Source of the DNA: a virus
Virus record (IMG/VR): IMGVR_UViG_3300035670_000448
Coordinates: 1-43,154 of that record
Direction: 5' to 3' (one strand)
DNA: 43,154 nt
Positions 128 to 43,154 of this stretch are shown here, in pieces. The position numbers and the translations under genes were made by a program. A model generated the notes under the pieces. The model did no database searches. It was not told the origin of the DNA and saw nothing but the letters and a program-made list of their open reading frames with translations. Every line of letters begins with the position of its first letter. Position 1 is the stretch's first letter.

Positions 128-313
128 TGGTAGTTGTTCATTTTCAAATAATTTATCTATTTTTAATTTCAGCCATTCTTCCTGTTTCCTGAATAGTTTG
201 AGATTCCTGGCCGCTGTGAGCAGTTCTTCGTCAGTCTTGGCCTTGTCTAATTCTCCGAGGAGTTTTTCAACATTAAACTGCTCCTCCACCAGCCTCATTA
301 TTTGCTGCCTCAT
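110..313 (-). CDS. Small hypothetical protein downstream of portal
   Basis: 67 residues, highly charged and helical (EELLTAARNLKLFRKQEEW), with no recognised domain. The start overlaps the portal 3' end by about 41 bases; a second Met six codons in (298) would reduce this to 26. Its stop overlaps the start of the next small gene, which crosses the contig join (ATG at 115-117). The position between portal and scaffold suggests a small head-morphogenesis or structural accessory protein, but this is only context. Confidence 0.6.
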   Translation of the reverse strand: MRQQIMRLVEEQFNVEKLLGELDKAKTDEELLTAARNLKLFRKQEEWLKLKIDKLFENEQLPKNTNG

Positions 314-2282
314 TTGGTTGCATTACTTGATTATTGACTGCCTGCTCCATGCCCTGCTGGTATGGGGGAACTGCTCCGCCCATAACTCTCACATGGTCGT
401 TGATATGCTGTTGAAGCATGGCTTGTTCTTCAGGAGCGTAAGGATGGTCAATGCCCCCGGCATTAAGAGCCGCCTTATGGATTTCAAGATGTACCTCGTG
501 GTTATCGGTCGGAAGTACCCTAGCGGTCTGCGGGTTGGCTGATTCTTCTTTGGCGTCTTGGAGTTGTGCCATTTGCCCCTGGACATCTCCTTCTTCACGT
601 TCTTTAGCATTCGGCAGGAAGTTTTCAACATCTTTAATCTGTACTCCATTTTCAAATATTCTTTCCCAGATAGCTTCCTTGTTGATAGGAGTTGGATTAA
701 GTGATTTTTCTTCCATATACACTTGGTTGAGTAAGAGCGACCATTTCTGGAGTTCGGCCTGTTGGGAAGCCAGCATGGTTGAGCCGGACACTACTACCAC
801 ATCTTTAACAGCTTCAATGTCTTTGAATTTGATATTCTTTTCCATTACATTGCCTTTCTTGCCTAGCACGCGGTAGATTATCTTTTTGTTGTCAGCCAAG
901 AATTGCTGGTTCATCCACAGGGCGTATTTGCCCATTGGTTCTAGGACTTGTTTTTCAAAGTTATCCATTATCATGGTGATTCTGGCGTTCGATTCCTGCG
1001 TCTTGATTTGGATTTCTCCAAGTGTCTTATTGCCTTTCAGTTGGTCGGAGCCTGTCTGATAATCAGTGATCCCCGAAGTGTTTTGTTTAGCTTTATTTAA
1101 AAAGTCATTCACATACTGCACGCCGTTCATGTTGGGAGTGGGAGTCTGCATGACGGCTACTGACTGGCCTAAAATCTTCACCGGCACTAAAGTTCTTGGT
1201 TTGTATTGGATGGCATCTGGAGCTAAAAGATTGGCAGGCACATATTCCATCGGGCGGGAAACATCAGTCCAAAGAGCTTCAATGGCCATATTTAAAGTAT
1301 CTTCTTCGGCGTCCAGCACTCCCTGCACTGGCTCAACCAGTCCGAAGCCGTAAAACTTTCCTAATCTGTCTATCGGACGAAAGATTCCAACAGGAGCGAA
1401 ATTGCGATCAAGAGTATTCTGTTCACAACGGATGGTTTCAGGATTATCTTCACCATAACAAGCTAGTGTTACCACCCAGTATTCGTAATATCCTTGGTCA
1501 TTTAAGACTCTGACATACAGTTCTGCTACCTCTACTTCCACGTCTTCAATCATTTTGTTAGCACGGTAATCGGAGATGCCGTCGTTTTGTTCTAGTCTTT
1601 CTTTCCACAAGTCGGAAGTTCTGATATTAAAGACCACATCCCTCACATCATAGCCGTCTTTTTTAAGTTCTTTGATAGTAGCGCGTGATTTGTATCCGAT
1701 AACCCGGCAATCATTGACTTCTTCGGCTTCCACGCTCCAAATAAGGTCATGTGGTTTCAAGGGTTCAAAAGTATAATTAGATAAAATATCCTCCTGGTCT
1801 TTTAAAACAGTCTTGGCAAACGGTTCCAGTAGTTTATTTTTGACTTCCATCCCCAGAATCTCTTTAGTTCGTTTCTTGTAGACCTTTCTTTCTTCTTTCC
1901 AGCCCATTTTCCAGCCGGAGAGTCCGCATACCAGTCCCCACTTGGCGACCTTCTTGATTTTAGACTGGCATTCAGCCTCATTCCATTGGTATTCAGAAAA
2001 TTCGTCATACATATCCGCCGATTCAGAATCGTCTCTGGCTCTAGCCATATAACGATACTTAGGCTGGCGGGCTAAAAGCCTGGGAATAGCGTTTTCAACT
2101 AGCGCATACGCACCGCCTAGAGTGATTTTAGATTCAGTATTGGCTGAAATTGAACCCTCCCTCAGTTTGTTTTCATACCTATCCACTAGAGTAAGCCAGC
2201 GTTCTTTGAGCGTTTCAAACTTAGCCTTGTGGTTAAGGTAGGTGTCTTTGGCGATATTCTCGATGATGTCTTTTTTAATCAT
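273..2282 (-). CDS. Phage portal protein (P22-like type)
   Basis: 669 residues, the size of P22-type podovirus portals. The N-terminal third is helical and charged. The middle contains the run FYGFGLVEPVQGVLDAEED followed by 'NMAIEALW', typical of the portal wing/stem where the chain lists the virion vertex contacts, and the C-terminus is Gln/Asn-rich with a long helix (EEQAMLQQHINDHVRVMGG), as in portal barrels. It would form the dodecameric ring through which DNA is packaged and ejected. The ATG overlaps the TGA of the preceding glycosyltransferase gene (ATGA), so this virion gene is translationally coupled to the glycan block. No Shine-Dalgarno sequence. Family assigned by motif impression and gene order (terL ... 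portal, scaffold, coat). Confidence 0.85.
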   Translation of the reverse strand: MIKKDIIENIAKDTYLNHKAKFETLKERWLTLVDRYENKLREGSISANTESKITLGGAYALVENAIPRLLARQPKYRYMARARDDSESADMYDEFSEYQWNEAECQSKIKKVAKWGLVCGLSGWKMGWKEERKVYKKRTKEILGMEVKNKLLEPFAKTVLKDQEDILSNYTFEPLKPHDLIWSVEAEEVNDCRVIGYKSRATIKELKKDGYDVRDVVFNIRTSDLWKERLEQNDGISDYRANKMIEDVEVEVAELYVRVLNDQGYYEYWVVTLACYGEDNPETIRCEQNTLDRNFAPVGIFRPIDRLGKFYGFGLVEPVQGVLDAEEDTLNMAIEALWTDVSRPMEYVPANLLAPDAIQYKPRTLVPVKILGQSVAVMQTPTPNMNGVQYVNDFLNKAKQNTSGITDYQTGSDQLKGNKTLGEIQIKTQESNARITMIMDNFEKQVLEPMGKYALWMNQQFLADNKKIIYRVLGKKGNVMEKNIKFKDIEAVKDVVVVSGSTMLASQQAELQKWSLLLNQVYMEEKSLNPTPINKEAIWERIFENGVQIKDVENFLPNAKEREEGDVQGQMAQLQDAKEESANPQTARVLPTDNHEVHLEIHKAALNAGGIDHPYAPEEQAMLQQHINDHVRVMGGAVPPYQQGMEQAVNNQVMQPNEAANNEAGGGAV

Positions 2283-3094
2283 ATTATTTGTAAAAGTTTA
2301 TCTATTGCGCGTTCCCAGGTGTATTCTTTGGGGTCAACGTCCTCTGGGAAGTTGTTGCCCTGGTCCCAGGTGTGGATTATGCACCCTGAAGCTTTGGCTT
2401 CCAGTATCGGCAGGCAGAATCCTTCAGATAATGAATGCTTATAAAAATGCTTGGCTCGCTGGTATATCTTGGGTATCTCCTGCTGGGGCGGGTTGGTGAT
2501 GGTTTCTACTCCTGCTATCGGCTGGGTTTCCCTGCCCAGCCAGACTATCCGCTTGTGGCCGTCTTTTTTGGCCTCATTGATTGAATATAAAATGTTCTTA
2601 TTGGGTTCGTTGTTGCCTTCAATCAAGGCATCTATGTCTCTGTTCAAATTATGCTGTATAAAAAATCTCTCGCTGATTCCGTTAGGGACTATTTGAAACT
2701 CCCGTCCTGTCCATTCGCCAGCGTATTGGCTGACGGCGATCAGCTTCCATCTGGGGTCTTGTCTCGTTTTTAAACACTTGGCTTTCAGCTCATCTCCGAT
2801 ATAGGCTTTTAAATCGTTGCCCTGCACAAACTGAAACTTCTTGCCTTTATAATTTATGAGCTGGTCGCACTGCATCCACCAGTTAGCTATCAACACATCC
2901 TCGTCTTGAAGCTGGGATAACTTAGTTATGGGGTACACGGGAACATCGGGGTATTCTTTTTCTAATTGAGGATTCCTGCCGTTAGCCGAGATAAAAGCGT
3001 CATAGCCTCTTTTCCTTAATTCCCTGCAATGTTCAAAGTTGGTGATGATTCCCCCGCAGGTGATGAGGGCGTCATTTACATAAGCTATCAACAT
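2279..3094 (-). CDS. Glycosyltransferase, GT4-like (GT-B fold)
   Basis: 271 residues. The C-terminal half has the GT4 donor-site signature SEGFCLPILEAKASGC, with the E-x7-E pair, preceded by 'RIVWLGRETQ'. It is shorter than the usual 350-400 residues of GT4 enzymes. The N-terminal acceptor domain begins MLIAYVNDALITCGG, with the Gly-rich turn expected near the start. It should transfer a sugar from a nucleotide donor to a glycan, lipid or protein; the substrate cannot be read. It overlaps the upstream epimerase gene by 23 bases and its TGA overlaps the portal ATG. Confidence 0.8.
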   Translation of the reverse strand: MLIAYVNDALITCGGIITNFEHCRELRKRGYDAFISANGRNPQLEKEYPDVPVYPITKLSQLQDEDVLIANWWMQCDQLINYKGKKFQFVQGNDLKAYIGDELKAKCLKTRQDPRWKLIAVSQYAGEWTGREFQIVPNGISERFFIQHNLNRDIDALIEGNNEPNKNILYSINEAKKDGHKRIVWLGRETQPIAGVETITNPPQQEIPKIYQRAKHFYKHSLSEGFCLPILEAKASGCIIHTWDQGNNFPEDVDPKEYTWERAIDKLLQII

Positions 3095-3890
3095 AATCTT
3101 TGAGGTCTGTCTTGGCTTTCCAGCCTAACTGCTTAATGCTATCTAAATCTATTTTGGAGGCTTTGCGGTCGCCTTTCTTTTCCCCGACAAACAGTATCTC
3201 TCCACCAAACATTTGGGCTACTTCATAAATCGTGTAATCTTTTTCATTTCCTAGGCAGTATTCGCCTTTGCCCTTGAGGCCTACCGTAATGAGGCCATCA
3301 ACTATGTCTTCTACGTGGGTGAAATTCCTTCGCTGGTCTCCCTTGCCGTTTATTAAATGAGGCTTATTATTCTTTCTGTTCTTCTCAAATATCCCTATCA
3401 CTGTGGCATATTTTCCTTCTTTAATCTCTCTGCCTCCATAGACGTTATAAAAATAAGTAATGGCGTAATCCAACCCAAACCATTCCGCGTATTTCTTAAT
3501 GAGTTCTGTGTTCTGGGCTTTAAAATAACTGTACGGGCTTTCCGCGTCTCCAAACTTTGTGCTGCTTCCGGCGTAAACTAATCTAACTTTGTTCTTGCGA
3601 CAATATTCTAAAACTCTCATTGTGCCAATATAGTTGGATTCAATCAGTTGCTCCATGTCTTCGTAGCAAGTGAGAACTCTGGAATACTCTCCTAAATGGA
3701 ATACGATATCAGGTGGCGGGATTAAGTCTATCTCCTTGCTATCCAGTTCAATGTATTTCACGCCTTTAACGTGGTTTTCTTTCCTGCCGGTAAAGTAGTT
3801 GTCCAGGCTTACCACTTCGTTGCCATCGGCCAGTTTTTCGCAGAGGTGGCTTCCGATGAATCCAGCTCCGCCGATTACTAAAATGTTCAT
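3072..3890 (-). CDS. NAD-dependent sugar epimerase/dehydratase (SDR, GalE/WcaG-like)
   Basis: 272 residues. The N-terminus carries the Rossmann motif GGAGFIGSH (GxxGxxG, G7/G10/G13) and an acidic residue after the second strand (SLDNY). The catalytic elements are the 'YAGSSTKFGDAE' Ser/Thr strand and a YxxxK motif (YSYFK). 'FTHVEDIVDGLI' is the usual extended-SDR motif. Such enzymes interconvert or dehydrate nucleotide sugars. It is about 40 residues shorter than typical GalE. Start and upstream stop overlap as ATGA. Confidence 0.85.
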   Translation of the reverse strand: MNILVIGGAGFIGSHLCEKLADGNEVVSLDNYFTGRKENHVKGVKYIELDSKEIDLIPPPDIVFHLGEYSRVLTCYEDMEQLIESNYIGTMRVLEYCRKNKVRLVYAGSSTKFGDAESPYSYFKAQNTELIKKYAEWFGLDYAITYFYNVYGGREIKEGKYATVIGIFEKNRKNNKPHLINGKGDQRRNFTHVEDIVDGLITVGLKGKGEYCLGNEKDYTIYEVAQMFGGEILFVGEKKGDRKASKIDLDSIKQLGWKAKTDLKDYVDSLCK

Positions 3891-5320
3891 ATAATTTTGC
3901 CGTATCTCTCATTTAACTGCTTGAATCCTTCGGCTTGCTTTTGGTCTAGCATGGCGATCCGGCTTCCCTGCTTGCGCCTATATTGGAATAACGGCTCGTG
4001 AACTTGCTTAAACCTGTATCCTTGCGTTACTGCCATTCGGAGCCAAAATCCATAGTCCTCATACCATTCTGTCGGATCAAAGATTCCATAAGGATCAGCG
4101 CATCTTCTATCCACTAAGGCGCAGGCACTCGGTATAATCTGGTTTTTGCGTAATTCTTCTATGGAAAACTCTGGGTATTTGTGCTTGTAACTTATATCCC
4201 CGAATATCTCCATGTCGGTAAAGACTATCTCCGCTTCTCCTTCTTGCATCTTGGCGAGCGTTTTTTCAATGAATTGGGGGTGCAATTTGTCATCGGCGTC
4301 AAGACAGATAAAATAGTCTCCAGTTGATTTTTCAATGCCTTTATTTCTGGCATGAGCGACGCCGGAATTAGCTTGCTGGATGAGATTGACTGGATACTGG
4401 CTGACAACTTGGCATGAATCATCCGAACTCCCGTCATCAACGACAATAACCTCATGGGGCTTGTATGTTTGGTTGATTGAGCTTTCGATTGCTTCTTTGA
4501 TGTACTGGCCATAATTATAGTTGGGAATTATTATTGAAACTTTGGGGCTGGGCATGATGCGTTTAGGGATGTCTTTTGGGAAATCGTGCGGTTCAAGTTT
4601 GTACATCCCATTTACCCATTGGTTCCAGCGGGTGTTGCGTTCGTTTTCCCATTCCGGCTTGGTTGGATGAATAAACTTCTCGTAGCGTAACCGCTTATTG
4701 TATTCAAAATTGTAACCGCGCGCGCGAGCTAAATGGTAAAAAACTATGTCTTTCCTAATCGGCTGTCTGGGATGTTCAAAGCTTCTGTCTTCGGGGTTGT
4801 CGTATTCTAAAACTCCCTCAATCCCTTTGCCCTTATATTTGCAACTGCGGTATTGTTCTTTGACTATGGTCATGTCCAAGGGCAGGACGCCGTAATACTT
4901 CTCGACCACTTCTCGTCTATAAAGCCGGTCTGGGTAGTGTTCTATCGGTTCAACATATCCCCACCGCCAAGCAACATTGTAGTATTTAACCCGTATGGAG
5001 TAGGCGTTATCATCCTGGATGGCTTCTCTGATTTTCTCCATTGATTCTTTCGTGTAGTATTCGTCAGCGTCTATTTGTAAAAACCAGTCGCCTGTCGCTT
5101 GCTGGAGGGAAAATGTCCTCGCTTCACCCATATTTACCGGCTCGCGGTATGGGTAGCTGAAGTATTTGACTTTGGGAAAGGACTTGGCTATCTCGGCAGT
5201 CTTATCGGTTGACTGCATATCTACAAAAACTATCTCATCCACGAAGTCGTGTATTCTTTCAATCGATCCTCTTAAAACATCTTCTTCGTTTCTCACTACA
5301 TATAATGCGGATAATGTCAT
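3887..5320 (-). CDS. Tandem GT2 glycosyltransferase (two GT-A domains)
   Basis: 477 residues with two family-2 domains. Domain 1 (about 1-230) has 'VRNEEDVLRGSIE', 'DEIVFVDMQSTDKT' and the metal-binding DADEYY. Domain 2 (about 260-477) has 'VSIIIPNYNYGQYIKEAI', 'VIVVDDGSSDDS' and CLDADDKL, followed by a 'WYEDYGFWLRM' acceptor-side motif (ED). A longer reading exists from 5371, but I choose the ATG at 5320 because it overlaps the upstream methyltransferase stop as ATGA, the spacing used throughout this block, and the GT2 fold begins immediately after it. It may act as a bifunctional enzyme adding two sugars. Confidence 0.85.
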   Translation of the reverse strand: MTLSALYVVRNEEDVLRGSIERIHDFVDEIVFVDMQSTDKTAEIAKSFPKVKYFSYPYREPVNMGEARTFSLQQATGDWFLQIDADEYYTKESMEKIREAIQDDNAYSIRVKYYNVAWRWGYVEPIEHYPDRLYRREVVEKYYGVLPLDMTIVKEQYRSCKYKGKGIEGVLEYDNPEDRSFEHPRQPIRKDIVFYHLARARGYNFEYNKRLRYEKFIHPTKPEWENERNTRWNQWVNGMYKLEPHDFPKDIPKRIMPSPKVSIIIPNYNYGQYIKEAIESSINQTYKPHEVIVVDDGSSDDSCQVVSQYPVNLIQQANSGVAHARNKGIEKSTGDYFICLDADDKLHPQFIEKTLAKMQEGEAEIVFTDMEIFGDISYKHKYPEFSIEELRKNQIIPSACALVDRRCADPYGIFDPTEWYEDYGFWLRMAVTQGYRFKQVHEPLFQYRRKQGSRIAMLDQKQAEGFKQLNERYGKII

Positions 5321-5889
5321 TTGGTTTTGCTTAAAACTAGTATATGGGGAGCTAAATGTTCTGCTTTCCAAGCTGGGAAATCATCCTTGCTCAGCCACTC
5401 AGCTTTGCCGCACATCTTCCATTCGCCCTGTTTAATTGATTTTTGCCTTGATTTTCCGACTATGCTGTTTCTATCTCCATCAATGATTACCATTAAGCCT
5501 CTTTTCTTAGTGACTCTTTTCATTTCAGAAAGGGTTTTATCCCTATTGAGCGATTGTTGCAGGGTCATAATCATATACACGAGGTCAAACTGGTCGTCTT
5601 CGTAGGGTAAGTTGTCCATATCGCCAACCATCTTATACACATTCTCACACTTGGCGATCATATTGGGAGAAATGTCTATGCCGTGTCGTTCGCAGTTGAG
5701 CTTTTCAATGACATTGCCCATACCGCAACCAATTTCCAGGACTTTGTAGGTAGGTTTTATCAGTCTTTTCAGGTATTCAATGGACTTCCTGTCGCATTCA
5801 GTGAGGTTTTTGGAGAACATCCCGTCTTTTTTCAGTGCTTCGCGGTCAAAATCATCCCTGATGCTCTGATAAGTGCTTGAACTTGCCAT
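5317..5889 (-). CDS. Class I SAM-dependent methyltransferase
   Basis: 190 residues. Motif I is YKVLEIGCGMGNV (around residues 45-58), motif II 'HGIDISPNMI', then GDMDNLPYEDDQFDLVY with the acidic/Pro-Tyr loop and a post-motif 'EMKRVTKKRGLMVII', as in Methyltransf_11 enzymes. Acceptor unknown; the context implies O- or N-methylation of a sugar. The start at 5889 overlaps the deacetylase gene by 38 bases; a later Met (5820) is possible, but the intervening 'IRDDFDREALKK' looks like genuine family sequence. Confidence 0.85.
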   Translation of the reverse strand: MASSSTYQSIRDDFDREALKKDGMFSKNLTECDRKSIEYLKRLIKPTYKVLEIGCGMGNVIEKLNCERHGIDISPNMIAKCENVYKMVGDMDNLPYEDDQFDLVYMIMTLQQSLNRDKTLSEMKRVTKKRGLMVIIDGDRNSIVGKSRQKSIKQGEWKMCGKAEWLSKDDFPAWKAEHLAPHILVLSKTK

Positions 5890-6466
5890 ACTTGTTGCCT
5901 ATTTTTATCAATTCTTTTAATTGGGAGAGTTTTTCTTCGGTGTCAAAGTCGTGTGAATCCAGGAAAAAGGTGAAATCTTTGTCTTTCTGACATATCCTTT
6001 CAAAATTATCTATAAAACTCAGTGGACAATACTTGTGTCTGAAATGGTGGAATGAACTGAAATACTGTTTGAGGTGGGCGTGTTCCATTGGATTACAAAC
6101 TGAACATTCAGCGCATTCCATTTCTCTCTGATAACCGTGTTTTTCCATCTCATCTGCCATGTCTTTGAAGTTTCGGAGGTGCGGTGAACGGTAAACTTTA
6201 GCTTCTACTCCGTAAGTGTCCCTGAGCCACTCGTGGTTCTGCATTAAATCAATAATCCTGTCTTGTAATGGTTTTTCATACCATTCTTGGTGGTGATAAC
6301 TGTGGTTGCCCAGTTCTACATTGACCGGAAAATCGTATTTTATTTCTGGGTGTCTTGATCCGGCGAGGAAAAAGGTTACTGGCGTATCTCCGATAGCGTC
6401 ATAAATATTCGGGAGGTTGTCGTAGTCTTTGGGATAATCAAAATCGAAACTTAAATAAATGTTCAT
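5852..6466 (-). CDS. Polysaccharide deacetylase (NodB homology, CE4-like)
   Basis: 204 residues. NodB motifs visible: SFDFDY near the N-terminus (Asp8/Asp10), HSYHH around residues 75-80 (His-x3-His metal ligands), YRSPHLR (the RxP motif 3) and a C-terminal LDSHDFD. CE4 enzymes remove N- or O-acetyl groups from amino-sugar polymers. The protein lacks a signal peptide, so it probably acts in the cytoplasm on a precursor or glycoconjugate. Several Cys/His around 120-135 (CAECSVC) are unusual. It starts with an ATGA overlap with the sulfotransferase stop. Confidence 0.75.
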   Translation of the reverse strand: MNIYLSFDFDYPKDYDNLPNIYDAIGDTPVTFFLAGSRHPEIKYDFPVNVELGNHSYHHQEWYEKPLQDRIIDLMQNHEWLRDTYGVEAKVYRSPHLRNFKDMADEMEKHGYQREMECAECSVCNPMEHAHLKQYFSSFHHFRHKYCPLSFIDNFERICQKDKDFTFFLDSHDFDTEEKLSQLKELIKIGNKYGKFKHLSEHQG

Positions 6467-7008
6467 TTTATATATTTCAATTCGTCTGGATAAAATAATT
6501 CAAAATCTTTCCTGTATAACTTGCGGGCAATCTGATCCAGCTGGTTGGTATAGTAATTCGGCCACGGCTCGCAATGGGTTCTGTGTATGTGTTGCAATTC
6601 AGGCCGTTCTATTTCTAATCCCTTGCAGAGAAACGACCAGTCCTGTTCCAGGTTTTCATATCTGCCTATCCAATCTACCTCCAGTTTGCCGTTATCGCAT
6701 AAGAAATAGCTCATCGGATAGGTATGTATATTCTGGAATCCGCGCTTATTGATGTCTAAAACAAAATCCTGGAATGTCTGTGGCTCATCTTTGGCAAAAT
6801 AGGCCGATACTAACCTGTCCAACGGGTGTCTCACAAAAGCAAACTTGAATATGTCTTTCCATTCTATGCCTGGCACATCTTCTATAAACTCTTTGTAATA
6901 CCTTATGGGTTGGTGTCCTAAACCGCCTACATGCTCTGCTATGCTTGTGCCGGCCGTTCTTGGCACGTGGATAAAAATGTATTTCTTTTCGTGATTATAA
7001 ATGCTCAT
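6463..7008 (-). CDS. Carbohydrate sulfotransferase-like protein (PAPS-dependent)
   Basis: 181 residues from the ATG at 7008, chosen because it forms ATGA with the radical SAM stop (a start at 7020 is also open). 'IFIHVPRTAGTSI' (about residues 11-23) is the 5'-phosphosulfate loop and FVRHPLDRLVSAYF the 3'-phosphate-binding motif of the Sulfotransfer_2 family. It would transfer sulfate from PAPS to a sugar hydroxyl. No PAPS synthesis genes are in the window, so the donor would come from the host. Sulfotransferases are rare in phages. Confidence 0.85.
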   Translation of the reverse strand: MSIYNHEKKYIFIHVPRTAGTSIAEHVGGLGHQPIRYYKEFIEDVPGIEWKDIFKFAFVRHPLDRLVSAYFAKDEPQTFQDFVLDINKRGFQNIHTYPMSYFLCDNGKLEVDWIGRYENLEQDWSFLCKGLEIERPELQHIHRTHCEPWPNYYTNQLDQIARKLYRKDFELFYPDELKYIK

Positions 7009-7682
7009 CTTATTCCGCACTTTTTACAAATTGGCAGTTCCCGTCTTTTGGCTTGGTTATAATACTTATCCCATTCGTATTCTTCCTTGGCATCCCGGCA
7101 ACACACCACTTTCTTGCCACTGGCGGTATAAACTGGCGTAATGTCGGGCTGGGTGCAATCCGTATAGTTATGGGTGTTCGGTTGGTTGGAATCATCTACT
7201 ATATGCACCATCTTGAATATATTTTTCAGTTCTTCTTCTTGGCCTTCGTTCTCCGGTTGTTTAACCATCTTCACATAAAACTCGTTGACTGCTCGCTCTT
7301 CCATCTCTTTGGCCTTCTTTATAACTAGATCATAGTTGTCGCGCTTCGTAATGTTTTCGTATGTTTGCCTGTCTCCGGCTGGGATTGAAACGCACAGCGT
7401 CTGTATCTTCTCGTAAGGCAGTCTCTTCGGATCAACCAGCACAGCGTTAGTTGAAAGAATAACCGGGAACTTGGAATACTCTATCATCTCGTATATCTTG
7501 GGGTGCATAAACGGCTCGCCTTTATTAAAGAGCATCACCGCGTCTGCTTCCAGCTTGTCCATGATTTCAATAAACTGCTCCCAACTCATGTCCTTTTCAT
7601 CTGTCTTAACTCCTTGTCTGAAAGGACACATTTGGCAATCGTTATTGCAACGGCTAGTAATATTTAATGCTGGCTTAACCAT
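7005..7682 (-). CDS. Radical SAM protein with SPASM-like C-terminus
   Basis: 225 residues. The CxxxCxxC motif is at the N-terminus (Cys12, Cys16, Cys19), followed by a 'FNKGEPFMHP' GGE-like motif and 'VILSTNAVL'. The C-terminus has a compact cysteine set (CTQP ... VVCCRDA ... CKKCG) like a shortened SPASM auxiliary Fe-S domain. Radical SAM/SPASM enzymes modify peptides or sugars through a 5'-deoxyadenosyl radical. Within a glycan block it may act on a sugar or on a virion peptide; the substrate is unknown. It is shorter than typical SPASM enzymes (300-400 residues). Confidence 0.8.
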   Translation of the reverse strand: MVKPALNITSRCNNDCQMCPFRQGVKTDEKDMSWEQFIEIMDKLEADAVMLFNKGEPFMHPKIYEMIEYSKFPVILSTNAVLVDPKRLPYEKIQTLCVSIPAGDRQTYENITKRDNYDLVIKKAKEMEERAVNEFYVKMVKQPENEGQEEELKNIFKMVHIVDDSNQPNTHNYTDCTQPDITPVYTASGKKVVCCRDAKEEYEWDKYYNQAKRRELPICKKCGIR

Positions 7683-8298
7683 TTAAGTAGGGTTTACTGT
7701 CTCTTATAAAGGCATTGGTGTAATCATCTGTCCCCATTCCAAACTTGTTGGGATATTCTCTGACACAATACTTGCTTCTGCCGTCCTGCATGTGGTCTGT
7801 CCAGATAAATGGGTATAAATAGCCATTAACCAGCCCTTTTTCCTTAAATTTCCATTGATATTCAGACAGTCCCATCAGTCCTTCACCCTCATAGCCATCA
7901 AAATCGCTTCTTCTAATCAGGAAGTTGCCTCCAATATGCGGGCGTTCCCATATCTTAATGCCGTTGTATTCGGTTATCTTCGGTTGGACTCCTGCCATTT
8001 CTTCGTCTCGGAAGTGGAATCCTCCGATATACCCGAAATGGTGTGCATCGTGAGCTTCTACGAGCCTCTCTATGAGTTCTGGCGGGCAAAGCATATCATC
8101 ATCTATCTTGCCCACTAATTCAGCGTCTGAGGCTAAGAATACGCGCGAGGTTATCTTGGCCAAACTCTCTTTGTCTCTATTTTCAAATACCGTCAGCTTG
8201 AAATCTTTGAATGTTTGTTTACCTAAGGCCTCCAAGCAAATCTTCTCATAAATCGGCCGGCCGCTAGTAATGACTAATATTTCTACTTTTGCAGGCAT
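7675..8298 (-). CDS. Family 2 glycosyltransferase (GT-A)
   Basis: 207 residues. N-terminal 'ILVITSGRPIYEKICLEAL', then 'FKLTVFENRD' and the metal-binding GKIDDDML, in GT2 order. 'GGNFLIRRSDFDGYEGEG' resembles the acceptor-side substrate loop. It overlaps the next methyltransferase gene by 16 bases and the radical SAM gene by 8. Function inferred from the DDD motif and neighbours; donor and acceptor unknown. Confidence 0.75.
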   Translation of the reverse strand: MPAKVEILVITSGRPIYEKICLEALGKQTFKDFKLTVFENRDKESLAKITSRVFLASDAELVGKIDDDMLCPPELIERLVEAHDAHHFGYIGGFHFRDEEMAGVQPKITEYNGIKIWERPHIGGNFLIRRSDFDGYEGEGLMGLSEYQWKFKEKGLVNGYLYPFIWTDHMQDGRSKYCVREYPNKFGMGTDDYTNAFIRDSKPYLNG

Positions 8299-8723
8299 AC
8301 TTGTAATATTTTATGTTGTCCTCTTTCTCCAACACTCACACTAACTGGCTTGAATAATGGATAACCCATTTCTTTAGCGTATGGGTTGTCATAGAAATTA
8401 ACAAAGGTGTGACGGCTGAAGAAACGGGTGTGTTCTATGCTTTCATAGGCCATTTCACTGTCTTTATGCGGAACTTCTATGTAAACTGTTCCGCCTGGCT
8501 TCAAAACCCTCCATATCTCGTTCATTACGAAGATAAAATCTTCATTCAGTTGGATGTGTTCGAGCGTGTGTTCGCAGTTTATCTCGTCAAACTTGTCGTC
8601 ATCAAAGGGCAGGCCTTTTCTAATGTCTCTCACCACATCTGGGTTGAACTCTTTAATGTAGTCCAGCCCGATCACCCCCTCTTCGTGTTTGAATCCTGGA
8701 CCCGAACCAATTACTAGTCGCAT
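8283..8723 (-). CDS. Short class I methyltransferase
   Basis: 146 residues. The glycine-rich motif I lies at the extreme N-terminus (LVIGSGPGFK), followed by 'GLDYIKEFNPD', 'LPFDDDKFDEINCEHTLEH' and a post-motif 'EIWRVLKPGGTVYIEVPH', the pattern of Methyltransf_11. The N-terminal helix usual in this fold is missing, so it is a minimal form. Likely methylates a sugar or glycan intermediate, by context only. Confidence 0.8.
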   Translation of the reverse strand: MRLVIGSGPGFKHEEGVIGLDYIKEFNPDVVRDIRKGLPFDDDKFDEINCEHTLEHIQLNEDFIFVMNEIWRVLKPGGTVYIEVPHKDSEMAYESIEHTRFFSRHTFVNFYDNPYAKEMGYPLFKPVSVSVGERGQHKILQVCLQK

Positions 8724-9598
8724 TCTTTATAACTTAATTTTAATTCCTTCAATAAATCTCTCACTCTGTGCCGATAGGTGTGGTGTTTCCGCACTTTCTC
8801 GCGGGCTTTGGCCAGTCTTTCAATTCCCTTGCTCCGGTCGTGGTTGTATTCTTTAATTAGGGCTTGGAATTCCTCTTTAGTCTTGCCGATTAAGAGTTCT
8901 CCTTCCTCAAAAAACTTATCCATCTGCGGTATGTAATCAGTTACCAGCGTTCCTCCGCATCCTAAGACATTCCAAAACCTCTCGTTTATCATCATTCCCG
9001 GCTTGTCGGCTATCCTTGAGGGCAGGGTTGAAACTATGTTCTTCTGGAAATCTCCGTGTATATTCGGACAGACGTTGGCTCCCCGGTAGATAGCGAATAA
9101 GTCTTTAGGTTCTGTACCTTTAATCTGGGTTACTCCCAGTCCACTCAGCCAGCCTTCGTCTCTTAACTGGTATTGGTTGCCCGCCCAGACTATATCTCCG
9201 CGCCTGTCGCCGGAATTTTGGTCATCCATCAAATCTGAATAAGCATGTGGCATGAAGAATGTCTTGAATCCTTCCAATAATTCTCCCTCCCACATAGTTA
9301 CTAAGATATGGGCATTGATAGCGTGCGGATCTGGATAAACATGCTTGATGAAATGTCCTAATAAAACTATCTTTCTGGCGTCCGTCCAGTTGTAGTTCGG
9401 CATGCCGGTCCATTCTGACTGGACAATGATATAGTCGCAGTCTCCCCATTCTCCCGTTAAGGATATCAGTTCAGCTTCATGTCCGTGCCATCTCAAGGCT
9501 TGGGCGATGTTATCCAACCAAACTGTCCCGCCGTTTATCACTCCGTTTTTCTTTCCGTCGGAATAGTCATGGTCGCAGACTGGCAGTTTGAATTTCAT
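8714..9598 (-). CDS. Glycosyltransferase, CgeB/YkvP-like (GT-B)
   Basis: 294 residues from the ATG at 9598, which overlaps the upstream stop as ATGA (a start at 9613 is open). The C-terminal 'NERFWNVLGCGGTLVTDY', then 'FFEEGELLIGKT', is the hallmark of the Glyco_trans_1_2 (CgeB) family, and 'IVWAGNQY' precedes it as the donor-domain strand. The N-terminus has 'NGVINGGTVWLDNIA', like a GT-B acceptor-domain loop. CgeB-type enzymes glycosylate surface proteins or polymers. Confidence 0.8.
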   Translation of the reverse strand: MKFKLPVCDHDYSDGKKNGVINGGTVWLDNIAQALRWHGHEAELISLTGEWGDCDYIIVQSEWTGMPNYNWTDARKIVLLGHFIKHVYPDPHAINAHILVTMWEGELLEGFKTFFMPHAYSDLMDDQNSGDRRGDIVWAGNQYQLRDEGWLSGLGVTQIKGTEPKDLFAIYRGANVCPNIHGDFQKNIVSTLPSRIADKPGMMINERFWNVLGCGGTLVTDYIPQMDKFFEEGELLIGKTKEEFQALIKEYNHDRSKGIERLAKAREKVRKHHTYRHRVRDLLKELKLSYKECD

Positions 9599-9801
9599 TT
9601 TCCAAATAAACAATGTTTAGGTAATTTAGCGACCATCTCTTCTACGCATTTCTCGCAACTGTATGAGGGCAGATATTCTTTGGCTATTTGTTTCCCACAA
9701 TGCTGGCAGTAATGAGGCTTTTTATAATCTTCTAGCACTTCTTTTAAGTGGGCTATCTCTTGTTCCCTTTCTTTGATTTGATTTTTTATCTTTTCTATCA
9801 T
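9595..9801 (-). CDS. Small coiled-coil zinc-ribbon protein
   Basis: 68 residues: an N-terminal charged helix (EKIKNQIKEREQEIAHLK) followed by two CxxC pairs (CQHC ... CEKC) that can bind one zinc. Coupled by ATGA to genes on both sides. No family recognised. It may be a small adaptor for the enzymes around it, or a phage zinc-ribbon protein of unknown role. Confidence 0.7.
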   Translation of the reverse strand: MIEKIKNQIKEREQEIAHLKEVLEDYKKPHYCQHCGKQIAKEYLPSYSCEKCVEEMVAKLPKHCLFGK

Positions 9802-10613
9802 ATGAGTTTCTTTATTTCTTTAACTGTGTATTGAGGCACTTGGTTGGAATAGGTTATGCCGTCCATAGTTTCATGCAGGTTCTCTCCGCCACGGTTGCCG
9901 ATTATCTCCACCTTCACCCGTCCGTATTTCTCCATCATGGCTTCTAATAAGTCTCCCATCCGCATAGCTTTCATCTTGGGGATATATGGAGTGGCATCTT
10001 TGGCTTTCCTGATGCAACTGAATATGAGTTTAATCGCGTCGTCCCTGGTCCAGAAGAATCTAGTCATGTTTGGTTCGGTTATCTTCACGCCTCTTCGCTG
10101 TTGCATGGCTTCCTTCCACTTGCACAACACTGAACCGGTTGAATAAAGGACATTGCCGTATCTAACGGTGCGGTATTTGGTATCAGGATTGATGGTTTCC
10201 GCTTCCTGCATCAGCCTTTCGCATAGGAACTTAGTCGCTCCATATACTCCTTTCACTTGCGCGGCTTTATCTGTACTTATAAATAAAAATAACTTGGGCT
10301 TTTGGTTGAGTGATTCCAGTAATAAATTGAATGTGCCGATGATGTTCGTGTTAATGGCGGTGAATACCTGCTGCTCCGCGATGTCCACTCCTTTCATAGC
10401 TGCCAGGTGATAGACCTCTCTTACTCCCCGCATGGCTTTCTTGGCTATCCACTCATCGGCTACGTCTCCGGTTAATGTTTCTATCTTGGGGAACTTCTGT
10501 TTGAGTTTCACCAGCAGGCCTTCGTTCCTGGCCACGACTCTTATCTTCTTGGGATATAGATTCTCTATTAACTTTTCCCCTAAAAATCCGCTGCCGCCTG
10601 TTATTAGAATCAT
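9798..10613 (-). CDS. UDP-GlcNAc 4,6-dehydratase-like protein (PseB/FlaA1/CapD type)
   Basis: 271 residues. ILITGGSGFLGEK is the Rossmann motif (G6/G9/G12); 'LFISTDKAAQVKGVYGATK' carries the PseB-type TDK plus YxxxK; and 'RYGNVLYSTGSVL', then 'ITEPNMTRFFWT', is distinctive of the inverting 4,6-dehydratase group. These enzymes begin pseudaminic acid or rare amino-sugar synthesis by converting UDP-GlcNAc to a 4-keto-6-deoxy sugar. As the first gene of the block after terL it may commit host UDP-GlcNAc to the pathway. The later pseudaminic genes (PseC, PseF, PseI) are not seen. Confidence 0.8.
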   Translation of the reverse strand: MILITGGSGFLGEKLIENLYPKKIRVVARNEGLLVKLKQKFPKIETLTGDVADEWIAKKAMRGVREVYHLAAMKGVDIAEQQVFTAINTNIIGTFNLLLESLNQKPKLFLFISTDKAAQVKGVYGATKFLCERLMQEAETINPDTKYRTVRYGNVLYSTGSVLCKWKEAMQQRRGVKITEPNMTRFFWTRDDAIKLIFSCIRKAKDATPYIPKMKAMRMGDLLEAMMEKYGRVKVEIIGNRGGENLHETMDGITYSNQVPQYTVKEIKKLI

Positions 10614-10614
10614 A

Positions 10615-11793
10615 TTAATAGGCTGTTTTAATTGTTCCCATATAAACAGGATCTAATTCTTGCATATAGAGAGCGTATCTGATCTCATCAAGCGCATGGT
10701 CGTTCTCCTTAATCGGTATTTCGGCCTCATTCTTTTCTGCTTTCTTTTCTGGATATGAGTATGTTTCCAGTTCCCAAATAAGGTTCTTGCATTCAGGGTG
10801 AATGTGGATTCTGTTTTGTTTGAATAACTCTTGTATCTTGGAAATGCCAGCTTCTATTTCTTTGCTTACATCTCTCACGTTGAGTCCGGCTTTCCTCGCT
10901 TCTTCCAGTCTGTCTGGTTCTGCGGGATCTGGATATACTTCGCTGGCTCTGGTTATTTGCGCCCATTGGATTATCTGTTCTGTGCTTTGCTGTGTCTTAT
11001 AAAACTCCATGTCTATCCAGTAATGTCTGTCATTATCTATCCTGATTCTGTGGACACTGGCCGGATTAGTCCAGCCCCAGTCTATTCCGCAGATAGTCTT
11101 AACTACTTGATTGGGCTGTTTATCGGTGACATGTTTATCCCTGTCAAAATATTTATACACAAGTCCTTCTGTCTTTTTAAAATTAGCGTTGTATTCTTGT
11201 TCAAATCTGTTTTCTGGGAGTTCTGCTTTAGCTTTCTCTAATTCTTCTACGGGGAGGTATGGATTGTCGTAGCTGGTATAATGAAATGATTTAAAATCTG
11301 TATCTTGTAAATTATATAAATCGTAGAAATGGTTGAATCCTTTAGGTGTTGAGATAAACATCACTTGGCCTTTCTTGTCGGTGAGTGTCGGCCTGATTAC
11401 TTCCTGCCAGTTAATCCAAAAGTTCTTCATCATCGCTATCTCATCTATCACAATGAAATCAAATGCCTGGCCTCTTAGTGTTTCAATCGCTTCCCAGCCT
11501 CGTAACTGTATTAAGCTCTCTGTGTTTTTTAAGTTTCTGACTGTGAGTTCCAGCCGGGATTCATTTATCTTCTTGATGATGGGCTTCAGTTCTTTGACTA
11601 ACATCTGCCAGGCGATGTCTCTGGCTTGCTGATAGGTAGGAGCTACGTAACAGATCCGTGATTCTTTGGCGAGGGCGATTCCTTTTATTTCTTCAATGGC
11701 GAGTGTGGTTTTCCCCCAGCGTCTTCCGCAACATAATACTCTGAACCTATGAGTATCACTGGCTATCTCCGCTTGTGTCGGATGCAATTCCAT
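10615..11793 (-). CDS. terL: Terminase large subunit
   Basis: 392 residues. Walker A is CCGRRWGKTT (residues 21-30), Walker B is FIVIDEIAM (around 115) and 'VMFISTPKGFNHFY' follows as the coupling motif. The C-terminal nuclease domain shows CGIDWGWTN, 'EVYPDPAEP' and DHALDEIRYAL, giving the acidic metal-binding residues. It cuts concatemeric DNA and drives packaging through the portal. It overlaps the terS candidate by 38 bases. A little short, but both domains are present. Confidence 0.93.
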   Translation of the reverse strand: MELHPTQAEIASDTHRFRVLCCGRRWGKTTLAIEEIKGIALAKESRICYVAPTYQQARDIAWQMLVKELKPIIKKINESRLELTVRNLKNTESLIQLRGWEAIETLRGQAFDFIVIDEIAMMKNFWINWQEVIRPTLTDKKGQVMFISTPKGFNHFYDLYNLQDTDFKSFHYTSYDNPYLPVEELEKAKAELPENRFEQEYNANFKKTEGLVYKYFDRDKHVTDKQPNQVVKTICGIDWGWTNPASVHRIRIDNDRHYWIDMEFYKTQQSTEQIIQWAQITRASEVYPDPAEPDRLEEARKAGLNVRDVSKEIEAGISKIQELFKQNRIHIHPECKNLIWELETYSYPEKKAEKNEAEIPIKENDHALDEIRYALYMQELDPVYMGTIKTAY

Positions 11794-13920: not shown

Positions 13921-14886
13921 TCAAGTGGTGACTGTAAGTGGTGAGAGCTTTTCCACTGCCTCCACAAGTGAAGTCTTAATGCTCCTTAAATAAATGTCCG
14001 TGGTGCTGGCTCGTGAATGTCCCAAGAGATGTTGAATGTCCGTAATTGGGATGTTTCCATCAGCCAGCCGTGAAGCTCCCAAATGCCTTAAACAATGGAA
14101 ACTAAAGTATGTTACTTTAGCATTTTTGCACAAAGTCCGCAAGAACTTGGAGCGATAACCATATGGCTGCCCTTTGTTGTGAAATACATATTCAGTGTAT
14201 TTCGGCACACTCTTTAGTGTATTTTTTAACACTACGTTTAAGGGTATCCTCCTTTCGGTTAAGTTTGAGTTCTTTGCTTTCCTGGTCCTAAGTATCAGAT
14301 AATCGTCAGTCACATCAGACCATTTGAGATTGTTAATTTCACTTACTCTGGCCATAGTGTTAATCAGGACCAATAAGTAATTACGCTGTTCTTCAGTTGC
14401 TAACTGCAAAACCTTAACCACATCTTCAATCGGCGGGATGTATCTTTGCTTCGGTTGTGTCGGAAACAAGTCTATCCCAACGGCCGGATTATCAGTTATC
14501 AGTTGGCGTCTTACTCCATAACCGAAGAGAGCCTTGATTAACCGCAACCTCTTATTGGCAGTTTGCGTGTTTTTTTGCGCGATTCTTGCGCAATAATCTT
14601 CCACGTCATCACGGGTGATTTCTTTCTTGTCAGACCATAATGAGATTAAGTTGTCAAAGAGCGCCTTATTTTCCTTGAAATGTTTACGGGTTCTCCTCAA
14701 CTCCAGGTCTTCCAGCCTCTTCTCGCAAAGACTTATAAAACCCATATTTGTCTTTTTTAATTTTTCCAGGGTTTTGGCCTTTGATATTTCGGCTTCCCGT
14801 TTGGTCTTGAATCCTCCCCGGCGGTGTCTCACTCCGCCCTTCCAAAAGTCGAACATCCATTTGCCTCCGTGCTTGTAAATTCCCAT
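13921..14886 (-). CDS. int: Tyrosine recombinase (phage integrase)
   Basis: 321 residues. N-terminal arm-binding domain 'MGIYKHGGKWMFDFWKGG' then 'FKTKREAE' (AP2-like); SAM-like core-binding middle; catalytic domain with Arg in 'NTMARVSEINNLKWSDV', HxxR in 'FHCLRHLGASRLA', and the final His and Tyr in LLGHSRASTTDIYLR. It integrates and, with Xis, excises the genome at the adjacent tRNA-derived attP. Strong ribosome-binding site AAGGAGGTGATAG directly before the ATG. The gene ends within the arm-site repeats. Confidence 0.95.
   Translation of the reverse strand: MGIYKHGGKWMFDFWKGGVRHRRGGFKTKREAEISKAKTLEKLKKTNMGFISLCEKRLEDLELRRTRKHFKENKALFDNLISLWSDKKEITRDDVEDYCARIAQKNTQTANKRLRLIKALFGYGVRRQLITDNPAVGIDLFPTQPKQRYIPPIEDVVKVLQLATEEQRNYLLVLINTMARVSEINNLKWSDVTDDYLILRTRKAKNSNLTERRIPLNVVLKNTLKSVPKYTEYVFHNKGQPYGYRSKFLRTLCKNAKVTYFSFHCLRHLGASRLADGNIPITDIQHLLGHSRASTTDIYLRSIKTSLVEAVEKLSPLTVTT
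13923..13944 (+). repeat. Putative integrase arm-site repeats 2 and 3
   Basis: Two copies of AAGTGGTGA (13923-13931 and 13936-13944, the second within TAAGTGGTGA), overlapping the last codons of int and about 45 bases from the tRNA-like core. See the first copy at 13740-13749. Confidence 0.5.
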
Positions 14887-20802: not shown

Positions 20803-21480
20803 TTATAGGTTTATAATTTTGTAATAACCGCTTCCTTTTCTCAAGGATAATGCCCTTAAAGCGTTATAAGTTACACCGTTTTCTTCAAGGGTTTTTTCCC
20901 AGAAGTGCGTGTGTCCTGAATAAACGAATTTTACCTGGTATTTTTCAAAGACTTCTTTTAAAGGACTCGTGCAGAATTGTCCGGCTTCGTTGAAAATCGG
21001 GATGTGCATGGAAACGAGGATTTTCCGGTCTGTGTTAAGGGTGTTTTTTAGCCAGTCCATTTGAGCCTCGTCTATGGTTCCGCAAGCCAGGCTCTCCGGG
21101 CTGGTGTAAAGAACCACTATCCGCCAGTTTTCAATGTCCCTGTAATAGTATGATTCGCTGGAGAATACGGCAAATGATTTCGGGCCATCATGGTTTCCTC
21201 TCGTGAACATGGCGTTTGGTATCAATTTTTTGACTTTCTTGGCGTATTTGGTTTCGCTTTTATTGGTGTTGTCTCCCAGGGTTAGGATATAGTCAGGTTT
21301 TTCTTTGACGAGTTTTTTGAGGAACTTTGTGTACTTGTTGGGATAAATGACATTTAGCTCGGTCATTTTACGCTTCTTCTGGCCGCCAGCGTGAATATCC
21401 GTAACTATCCCCAGGCTGAAAGCATTGGCAAATAAAGGCAGGAATAGTCCGAGGATTAAGACTGGTACTATTTTTTTCAT
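20803..21480 (-). CDS. Secreted calcineurin-like metallophosphoesterase
   Basis: 225 residues with a classic signal peptide (MKKIVPVLILGLFLPL, cleavage after ANA around residue 20). Metal-site motifs in order: DIH (Asp28/His30), 'LTLGDNTN', GNHDGP, SMHIPI, SGHTHFW. It should hydrolyse a phosphoester outside the cytoplasm, unusual for a phage; possible targets include nucleotides, cell-wall or teichoic-type phosphodiesters, or signalling molecules. No ribosome-binding site. The next gene (HNH) may be read by frameshift from it. Confidence 0.85.
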   Translation of the reverse strand: MKKIVPVLILGLFLPLFANAFSLGIVTDIHAGGQKKRKMTELNVIYPNKYTKFLKKLVKEKPDYILTLGDNTNKSETKYAKKVKKLIPNAMFTRGNHDGPKSFAVFSSESYYYRDIENWRIVVLYTSPESLACGTIDEAQMDWLKNTLNTDRKILVSMHIPIFNEAGQFCTSPLKEVFEKYQVKFVYSGHTHFWEKTLEENGVTYNALRALSLRKGSGYYKIINL

Positions 21481-30545: not shown

Positions 30546-30821
30546 TTAGTTATACTTAGAAGTGCATTTAGGAACACTTTTAGGCTCGCTGATACAGCAA
30601 AGCCACGGTCTTTCAATTCCTTTACTGCACTGCTTATCTTCATTTAAAAATGGACACTTCATTCTTTCGCAACATTTTCCGCAAGAAGAACATCTTGAAG
30701 TCTTGATGTGCCACTTTTTTTCCCATGGTAGCCAATAAGCAACCCTCTCAATCCCAGCCATTATATGAATTCCCCTTGCTTCTTTTTCTACCCAATCGGG
30801 AATTTCCAATTCTATTTTCAT
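30546..30821 (-). CDS. CxxCxxCC (YkgJ/FliB-type) cysteine-cluster protein
   Basis: 91 residues. 'CSSCGKCCERMKCPFLN' contains the CxxCxxCC signature, followed by 'QCSKGIERPWLCCISEP' and a final 'VPKC', as in PF03692 proteins, which bind zinc or an iron-sulfur cluster. FliB of this group methylates flagellin lysines; the function of short members is unknown. It lies between the glycosyltransferase-methyltransferase fusion and the fibre gene, so it may modify the fibre. Confidence 0.75.
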   Translation of the reverse strand: MKIELEIPDWVEKEARGIHIMAGIERVAYWLPWEKKWHIKTSRCSSCGKCCERMKCPFLNEDKQCSKGIERPWLCCISEPKSVPKCTSKYN

Positions 30822-31960
30822 TTGAGTTTTTTATACCAAATTGTTCCTACTGTGTGGACGAATCCTAACTTTTCAGTGACTGCTTGTTGGACACCAGGCC
30901 ACTGAAAGTCGTGTCCACAAATCAATTTCTTAGTCTTGGGAAGCCACGCCTCAATGTCGGCTTTGACCGCTTCATAAGTGTGTGCTCCGTCAATGAAAAC
31001 CATATCCGCTTTTCCGACTTTCTTAACCGCTTTTAATGATTCACCTTTGATGACTTTCAAATTCTTGAAGTCTCCGACGTTTTTCATAAAGTCTTGGTAG
31101 AGATTTTTCACTCCTTTGTGGGCTTCTTCACCTGGAGAACCTTTAAAGGTATCAATCGCCGTGACTGTTCCTTTGCAAGCCGATAAGAGAGCGTGAGTCG
31201 AGCGTCCTTTCCAGCTTCCGATTTCGGTGACTGAATCCATTGTCCCTGCCACTTTATAAAGCCAGTTGAGTTCTTCTTTGCTCATCCAACCTTCGATTTG
31301 GTTGTCGTAAGGATATTGAGCTTTGATGGCGTCTTGTTTCATCCAGTCGTAATAAGTCTTGGAATTAAATTCCTGTTCCCCGATGTGATTGAGGGGAATG
31401 GTAGGATCGCACCAAATCTTAAATCCAGCCTTCTTGGCTCGAATACAAAAAGCCAAATCTTCCCCGATGTCGTTGCCGTTGGGTTTCTTCATAAAGTTGA
31501 AAGGAAAACCCCATTTTCTGACAAACTTCTTGTCAAACATCTTTTCCAATACCCGTCTTTTAATCAGCAAGAATCCAGTCCCGATTCCATCACATTCAAA
31601 GAGGTCGGATGGGGGGTTCTGGATGCAGGTATGGTCAAGGCCTTTGACTGAGTAAACAAGGGGAGAGTGGGGGGCGCGCTTTTTAAAGTACATCCCGCCC
31701 ACTATGTCCTTGTTTCTTGAAATCAAACGTTCCAGTCCCCATTCTGGGAATTCGGTGTCCGAGTCAATGAAGAGAAGATAATCCGTGGGGATTCCTTGAG
31801 CGATGGTATTTCTACCGACATGAACCAGGCTTGACTGGTAAAAAGCCACGCCGATTGGTCTTTTGGCGTATCTTAACGTGCTGATAAGCGAAGTGACGTA
31901 TTCAGGTGTCAAATCACGACCGTGCGGAGTGCCAATAGTTACGCTTTCAATTTTGTTCAT
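30818..31960 (-). CDS. Glycosyltransferase-methyltransferase fusion
   Basis: 380 residues. The N-terminal domain (about 1-215) has a GT-A-type core with YLLFIDSDTEFP (metal-binding DSD) and 'GEDLAFCIRAKKAGFKIW' (acceptor-side ED). The C-terminal domain (about 235-380) is a Methyltransf_24-type fold: 'VTEIGSWKGRSTHALL' (motif I), 'VTAIDTFKGSPGEEAH', 'ADMVFIDGAHTYEAV'. It probably adds and caps (methylates) a sugar. It sits between virion genes and the fibre gene, apart from the main glycan block. Confidence 0.8.
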   Translation of the reverse strand: MNKIESVTIGTPHGRDLTPEYVTSLISTLRYAKRPIGVAFYQSSLVHVGRNTIAQGIPTDYLLFIDSDTEFPEWGLERLISRNKDIVGGMYFKKRAPHSPLVYSVKGLDHTCIQNPPSDLFECDGIGTGFLLIKRRVLEKMFDKKFVRKWGFPFNFMKKPNGNDIGEDLAFCIRAKKAGFKIWCDPTIPLNHIGEQEFNSKTYYDWMKQDAIKAQYPYDNQIEGWMSKEELNWLYKVAGTMDSVTEIGSWKGRSTHALLSACKGTVTAIDTFKGSPGEEAHKGVKNLYQDFMKNVGDFKNLKVIKGESLKAVKKVGKADMVFIDGAHTYEAVKADIEAWLPKTKKLICGHDFQWPGVQQAVTEKLGFVHTVGTIWYKKLK

Positions 31961-31997
31961 ATAATGAAGTTAAGGATTAAAACTTAACTGTCATTAT
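31961..31997. repeat. Intergenic inverted repeat in the late operon
   Basis: ATAATGA + AGTTAAG, loop GATTAAAA, CTTAACT, one bulged G, TCATTAT: nearly perfect 14-bp stem between two late genes, overlapping the stop of the upstream gene and reaching the start region of the fusion gene. No T-run. Possibly an attenuator or mRNA processing site. Confidence 0.5.
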
Positions 31998-32416
31998 GTG
32001 AGCTTGAGAATACCAGCCGAAGACCAGGTAATGATGAAGTTACCGTTATCAGATGTTTTGTTCGCGCTGAAATCCACATATCCAATTAAAGGAGATGTGT
32101 TGTTCGTTCCGGTATTCTTCCAAATCAGAGCGTAACGAGCTGTGATGGTTGATGTTGCCCAGGTGAGGTCAGCCGCATCGAAGTAAGCGAGGTCGTTAGT
32201 CGTGTCAACTGAAACAACTGGAGAACCCAGGGTTTTCCCTTTAGTGGTGTACCCATTAGCTGATGCTACTTCGGTTGAAGTTACATCGGAATACATTGTC
32301 ATCGTGTCGATATCGGCAGAGAATGAATCGGTGTGCAGGGATACGTTGATGTTGTCGGTGTCGAGGTCAATCGAACCGTCCATGATGCTCTTTTTGAATG
32401 AGTTAAATAGTGCCAT
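31994..32416 (-). CDS. Virion-associated protein
   Basis: 140 residues, Thr/Ser/Asp-rich beta protein (MALFNSFKKSIMDGSIDL ... 'FIITWSSAGILKLT'). This beginning and end are typical of short phage structural proteins coded near tail genes. No catalytic motif. Possibly a head decoration or tail protein. Confidence 0.55.
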   Translation of the reverse strand: MALFNSFKKSIMDGSIDLDTDNINVSLHTDSFSADIDTMTMYSDVTSTEVASANGYTTKGKTLGSPVVSVDTTNDLAYFDAADLTWATSTITARYALIWKNTGTNNTSPLIGYVDFSANKTSDNGNFIITWSSAGILKLT

Positions 32417-43144: not shown

Positions 43145-43154
43145 TAGTGTTTTT
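43028..43154. repeat. Terminal direct repeat, right copy
   Basis: Identical to bases 1-127; see the left copy. Removing one copy gives a circle of about 43,027 bp. Confidence 0.9.

Follow-up and report, generated by a model that had tools for sequence, protein, structure and literature searches.

The window analyzed here, the whole 43,154 bases of the uncultivated-virus record IMGVR_UViG_3300035670_000448, carries on its minus strand a block of twelve overlapping genes (2279-10613) bounded by the gene for the terminase TerL and the gene for the portal protein. We lettered these genes l to a, running from the terminase side to the portal; 11 of the 12 fall in recognizable enzyme families, and the twelfth is a small zinc-ribbon-like open reading frame (ORF). 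All twelve ORFs listed in a preliminary description of this DNA are present, and its family calls were borne out: a PseB-like protein, an SDR protein, four glycosyltransferase (GT) proteins (one with two GT2 domains), two methyltransferases, a NodB-like protein, a sulfotransferase, and a radical SAM protein. The zinc-ribbon ORF also exists, although that assignment is weak (C1_1, 24.8 bits, below the cut-off), and we saw no conserved counterpart of it in the relatives.

Overlapping genes on one strand form an unbroken run from terS to the portal gene. The TerL stop lies 1 nt ahead of the block, and ATGA overlaps occur at l/k, f/e, c/b, and a/portal; three more (k/j, g/f, and d/c) appear when internal ATG codons are taken as the starts of j, f, and c. 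This gene overlap implies that the block would be transcribed jointly with the packaging and head genes, and given the overlap of a with the portal gene and the 1-nt gap to terL, independent expression of the block is unlikely. The composition of the block (GC, 0.434) matches that of the other phage genes (0.445).

The cassette is real and lineage-wide, and no description of it was found in a literature search made without most subscription journals. The portal family comprises about thirty contigs in IMG/VR, and in 21 of them a lies upstream of the portal gene, in the terminase-portal neighborhood (L016, L017, L018, L019, L021, L024, L028, L088, L089, L092, L093, L095, L096, L097, L099, L100, L102, L103, L105, L187, and L191; L092 and L093 are near-identical, and L096 and L097 hold partial copies of a). 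There is no counterexample in the family, as the contigs without a all end within ~3.1 kb upstream of the portal gene. In most relatives the cassette sits directly upstream of terS-terL-portal, and the order TerL-block-portal is found in the window, L018, L019, and L191; the block is thus not the one-off insertion splitting the packaging genes that it had been taken for. Chance assembly or contamination can be ruled out, since the gene order is common to the relatives. Similarly, the statement that no phage has this combination holds for the isolates searched, with zero matches to the signature GT a among 50,697 phage and 72,556 plasmid records and only two distant portal matches (~22%) among isolate phages, but it does not hold for uncultivated contigs: L025 has 9 of the 12 genes (l, j, h, g, e, d, b, c, and a). 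Deeper branches retain a and have other GTs substituted (TOD1/MUCI70-type, GT2-CgeB fusions).

Other genes are also seen at this site. L014 (858-2633) and L015 (1307-3082), contigs cut inside or near TerL, have a metallophosphoesterase, a LamG/ConA-like lectin, and one more gene between TerL and the portal, where the window has its glycan block. A GroEL-type chaperonin (491 amino acids; NCBIfam GroEL, 518-522 bits) lies within the glycan block of L021 (1107-2582) and L025 (3734-5209), and HNH endonucleases lie inside that of L018 (5503-6051) and L096 (5974-6465); the latter may help the block spread.

A core of five genes, l-j-i-c-a (dehydratase, GT, methyltransferase, double GT2, and GT1), is found in the same order in a second group of contigs, L026, L027, L029, and L113, where it stands directly after the major capsid protein (MCP) gene or one GT gene further on. 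BLAST finds no significant similarity between the gene at the portal position in this group and the window portal, and the capsid protein is only remotely related to that of the window (same PHROG, 267). Nevertheless, the l, i, c, and a proteins of the second group are 42 to 70% identical to those of the window (i, 66% in L029 and 56% in L113), with j at 29 to 33%, and the window and L029 group together in a tree built from a (support, 0.986). Because the same five-gene order occurs with a second, unrelated head type, the core is, as judged from gene order, a unit that moves between head modules and repeatedly settles by head genes. As far as comparison of contigs can tell, this linkage across two head types is the strongest evidence for a role tied to the particle or to late expression.

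Is the block then a possession of the phage lineage or a host polysaccharide locus? When GTDB genomes were scanned with the a profile, the matches listed were all generic GTs, at ~30% or less over long stretches, and in Patescibacteria genomes the same profile gave generic GT4 matches of at most 82 bits, compared to at least 270 for full-length phage copies. The cassette was not seen as a chromosomal cell locus among the GTDB matches listed, nor in plasmids. With generic GTs alone among the GTDB matches listed, and the core kept next to the head genes of many phage contigs, gene-order comparison supports assignment of the block to the phage lineage, as a glycan module within a late operon.

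These results also bear on the idea that the genes are accessory cargo, host-derived morons that gathered at an insertion site and are expressed in lysogens or passively carried. A tyrosine integrase gene in the window (13921-14886) and the variety of other genes at the same site (the metallophosphoesterase and LamG-like genes of L014/L015, the HNH genes, and the GroEL gene of L021) are what one would expect of cargo. However, the five-gene core order is kept over deep divergence, and the portal profile, with no relative among 84,980 GTDB species, found no integrated copy in GTDB genomes. We consider this explanation quite improbable.

The proteins themselves are summarized in Table 1.

Table 1. 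Genes of the block, its flanks, and a further candidate glycan enzyme, listed from the terminase side
Gene	Assignment	Position	Strand	Evidence
TerL	Terminase large subunit; upstream flank of block	10615..11793	-	PF03237 E 1.8e-18
l	PseB/CapD-type UDP-N-acetylhexosamine (UDP-HexNAc) 4,6-dehydratase-like SDR; core	9798..10613	-	PF02719 E 8.4e-60
k	Small coiled-coil and zinc-ribbon-like protein	9595..9801	-	C1_1/DZR below cut-off
j	CgeB-like glycosyltransferase; core; ATGA-coupled ATG at 9598	8714..9613	-	PF13524 E 8.5e-19
i	Small S-adenosylmethionine (SAM)-dependent methyltransferase; core	8283..8723	-	PF08241 E 1.1e-9
h	GT2-type glycosyltransferase; accessory; forms a pair with g	7675..8298	-	PF00535 E 3.4e-6
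g	Radical SAM protein; accessory	7005..7682	-	PF04055 E 3e-11
f	Sulfotransferase; accessory; ATGA-coupled ATG at 7008	6463..7020	-	PF03567 E 2.6e-17
e	NodB-like polysaccharide/HexNAc deacetylase; accessory	5852..6466	-	PF01522 E 5.7e-10
d	SAM-dependent methyltransferase; accessory	5317..5889	-	PF08241 E 3.6e-18
c	Two-domain GT2; core; likely start ATG 5320	3887..5371	-	PF00535 E 9.6e-54, two stretches
b	SDR sugar epimerase/reductase-like; found in several relatives	3072..3890	-	PF01370 E 1.5e-37
a	GT-B (GT4-like) glycosyltransferase; signature and core gene	2279..3094	-	AlphaFold2 and Foldseek
Portal	SU10-type portal; downstream flank, ATGA-coupled to a	273..2282	-	SU10_portal PF23899 E 4.5e-24
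	Possible extra glycan enzyme among tail genes: fusion of a GT-like N-terminal half with Methyltransf_24	30818..31960	-	phrog_12406 (glycosyltransferase) E 5.9e-12; PF13578 E 1e-15

Ten of the block enzymes are above Pfam cut-offs, and a is slightly under (GT1, 24.5 bits; cut-off, 26.4). Structure prediction, run for a and c, gave GT-B and double GT-A folds, respectively. The AlphaFold2 model of a is confident (predicted local distance difference test [pLDDT], 92.5), and its Foldseek matches are GT4-type enzymes (best E, 2e-9). For c (pLDDT, 89.2; predicted template modeling score, 0.87), the best whole-protein Foldseek match is the Escherichia coli K4 chondroitin polymerase (E, 4.6e-23), although the root mean square deviation of 17 to 19 Å in this alignment means that the domains agree and their arrangement does not. 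Profile searches pair the first domain of c with GmaR (1.5e-21) and SunS (2e-12), and the predicted fold also matches SunS, although the NCBIfam SunS score (56 bits) is below the 350-bit cut-off; the second domain matches chondroitin synthase and other GT2s.

The dehydratase-like protein l has the TDKA and YGATK motifs, is 42 to 70% identical to its counterparts in the relatives, and matches CapD (6bwc; E, 6.9e-36) and a UDP-GlcNAc C6 dehydratase (2gn4; E, 2.3e-35) in PDB. Since its score against the NCBIfam PseB model TIGR03589 (173 bits) is below the equivalog cut-off (407.75), "PseB-like" is correct and the label "PseB" is unproven; Pfam scans found no PseC, PseH, PseG, PseI, or PseF partner in the block, so that a pseudaminic acid pathway is not complete there. 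The nearest PDB entries to b are a UDP-glucuronate (UDP-GlcA) decarboxylase and GalE-type SDRs, and whether b would act as an epimerase, a decarboxylase, or a reductase cannot be told apart by these matches.

Among the remaining enzymes, j has homologs in both phage lineages, and the h-g pair recurs in L021 and L025, where g is 50% identical. The g protein has a CxxxCxxC motif and a SPASM-like Cys pattern at its C terminus, with NCBIfam SPASM maturases below cut-off. The sulfotransferase f has the loop HVPRTAGTS for 3′-phosphoadenosine-5′-phosphosulfate (PAPS) and matches phrog_3347, a Gal-3-O-sulfotransferase (E, 1.2e-21); neither f nor the NodB protein e has a sequence match in PDB. The e protein is 53% identical in L021, and d is 60 to 61% identical in L017 and L021.

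The rest of the genome gives the setting. The window bears an exact 127-bp terminal repeat (1-127 and 43028-43154) and is therefore a complete genome, circularly permuted and ~43 kb long; the IMG/VR record is not flagged circular. Its gene set, with a portal and adaptor of the SU10 type, an internal virion protein, and genes for a tail, suggests a short-tailed phage, and no tRNA gene is present in the window. After the portal, across the circular join, come a gene at 42427-42972 and then the MCP gene, as in L013. Two calcineurin-like phosphoesterases (20803-21480 and 24909-25661, the latter on the minus strand) lie away from the structural genes. The window TerL is 67 to 70% identical to those of L001-L007, phages with a different portal, and the TerLs of the close portal relatives are of other types, ~25% identical to it; because the two sets of relatives part in this way, the window's terminase is a swapped one.

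What, then, might the cassette do? The reading that we favor, with about even confidence, is that this phage-owned, soluble cassette puts together, in the cytoplasm and late in infection, a short, decorated sugar chain on at least one virion protein. We imagine that l, with b, would turn host UDP-GlcNAc into a UDP-6-deoxy-HexNAc-type or epimerized donor. A Ser or Thr (or Cys) of a virion protein might then receive its first sugar from the N-terminal, GmaR/SunS-like domain of c, or from a or j, after which the C-terminal domain of c, together with a, j, and h, would lengthen the chain. Editing would fall to d and i (methylation), e (deacetylation), f (sulfation), and g (radical SAM chemistry). 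One can envision a benefit in adsorption, or in protection of the particle from the host or the environment; the catalytic steps, the acceptor, and the benefit are all put forward here as inferences.

A virion protein is the plausible acceptor because the enzymes appear soluble, late, and head linked and because c begins with a domain similar to protein GTs. No membrane segment is predicted in any of the 12 block proteins (maximum Kyte-Doolittle 19-residue mean, 1.32), and the block encodes no flippase, polymerase, ligase, or polyprenyl-phosphate sugar transferase. GTs of plausible fold are there, by Pfam for most and by AlphaFold2 and Foldseek for a and c. We also considered guessing the acceptor from Ser/Thr content, and three proteins of the tail region (27414-30545, a tail fiber; 31994-32416; and 38278-38991; all minus strand), which are possible acceptors, have 27 to 28% Ser/Thr; this was not used, since fibers are often rich in these residues.

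Several points weigh against decoration of the virion. Both the acceptor protein and the glycan would be deduced from genes, and the acceptor cannot be read from a GT2 or GT4 sequence. The second domain of c and its whole fold match polysaccharide synthases as well, cytoplasmic GTs can use lipid-linked or surface-bound acceptors, and polysaccharides are the usual substrates of NodB and sulfotransferase enzymes. The integrase makes lysogenic roles possible.

Some of these points lead to the main rival, in which the late enzymes would alter or cap a surface polysaccharide or wall glycans of the host, blocking readsorption of progeny or superinfection. Phage O-antigen conversion is well known; nucleotide-sugar dehydratases, like the deacetylases and sulfotransferases, usually serve surface polysaccharides, and the C-terminal domain of c matches GTs such as TuaG by profile and TarP by fold. 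Yet the block lacks the membrane protein, flippase, and polyprenyl-phosphate transferase of Gtr systems, a change made from a late head operon would come near lysis, and the core remains by head genes across unrelated head types. The preliminary description had offered both possibilities. Virion decoration, although it stands as an inference, gains from the missing membrane and lipid-carrier parts, the protein-GT-like domain of c, and the two head types; host-envelope change is less supported, and we regard it as rather unlikely.

A third candidate acceptor is phage DNA, through a hypermodified base, and virus GTs that hypermodify DNA are reported by Pyle et al. (2024), as cited in PMC12619734. 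A nucleotide-sugar dehydratase, a deacetylase, and a sulfotransferase do not fit such a role, however, and the genes belong to a head operon and do not lie among those for replication. No thymidylate-synthase-like hydroxymethylase or TET/JBP domain turned up when Pfam was run on the block and on the majority of the large ORFs, and this absence counts against DNA glycosylation as well, leaving it a very improbable explanation.

Clues to the host are few. When the portal profile was run on 380 Patescibacteria, 396 Bacteroidota, and 389 Pseudomonadota genomes, it found L204, in a Patescibacteria bin, and one marginal Pseudomonadota match. L204 (1-10557) is a 10.5-kb contig of a distant phage in bin G260, with TerL, an SU10 portal, and a capsid gene and then a double GT2 close behind; its TerL is 35% identical to that of the window (E, 4.6e-63), compared to E values of ~2e-46 to 7e-47 for the best isolate-phage matches, from a search with a different database size. 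We take this as a hint, a lead toward a Patescibacteria host group and not an assignment, because bins can hold stray phage contigs and L204 may be misbinned. The L021 GroEL was tried as a second clue; at 45 to 52% identity it is equidistant from all phyla sampled and therefore uninformative. A survey of Patescibacteria-linked viruses reports abundant epimerase and sulfotransferase auxiliary metabolic genes (PMC12285232). In its accessible text these are the same enzyme classes as here, given as family counts, and no cassette, head-gene linkage, or relation to this phage appears there.

Phage particles are usually regarded as bare protein. The cassette suggests that particle glycosylation, rather than being a mycobacteriophage oddity, may be routine for a large group of uncultivated phages. 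This would bear on phage adsorption, stability, and recognition, and the cassette would be a source of small, soluble enzymes for glycan work. More tentatively, and with clearly less confidence than in virion decoration itself, one can picture a transferable, self-contained, soluble virion-glycan module, exchanged between unrelated head modules but always by head genes, that coats the particles of uncultivated phages, possibly Patescibacteria-infecting ones, with a sulfated glycan.

Known systems resemble the cassette in part. Gtr O-antigen conversion also uses phage sugar-transfer genes, and among PHROGs a GT2 domain of c matches the GtrB family, but Gtr needs the membrane flippase GtrA, a membrane GtrB, and GtrC, whereas the cassette is without a membrane protein. 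GmaR and SunS, which glycosylate proteins or peptides, resemble the N-terminal GT2 of c; in c this domain is joined to another GT2, one similar to polysaccharide synthases. Chlorella virus PBCV-1 glycosylates its major capsid protein with virus-owned, soluble machinery, and the glycan is methylated; it is a eukaryotic nucleocytoplasmic virus with different enzymes, and we liken it to the cassette by description only. A precedent is offered by the mycobacteriophages, in which phage-encoded GTs are thought to glycosylate capsid proteins; glycans on the major capsid proteins of Che8 and Rita are described in PMC11256854, citing Freeman et al. (2023). These phages, as described there, have their few GTs close to one end of the genome (two in Maravista), whereas the window, known from its genes alone, has four GT proteins together with donor synthesis, deacetylation, sulfation, methylation, and a radical SAM protein in a head operon. 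Phage-encoded glycosylation was thus already known; what is new is a large, soluble assembly-and-editing kit beside the head genes, across unrelated head types.

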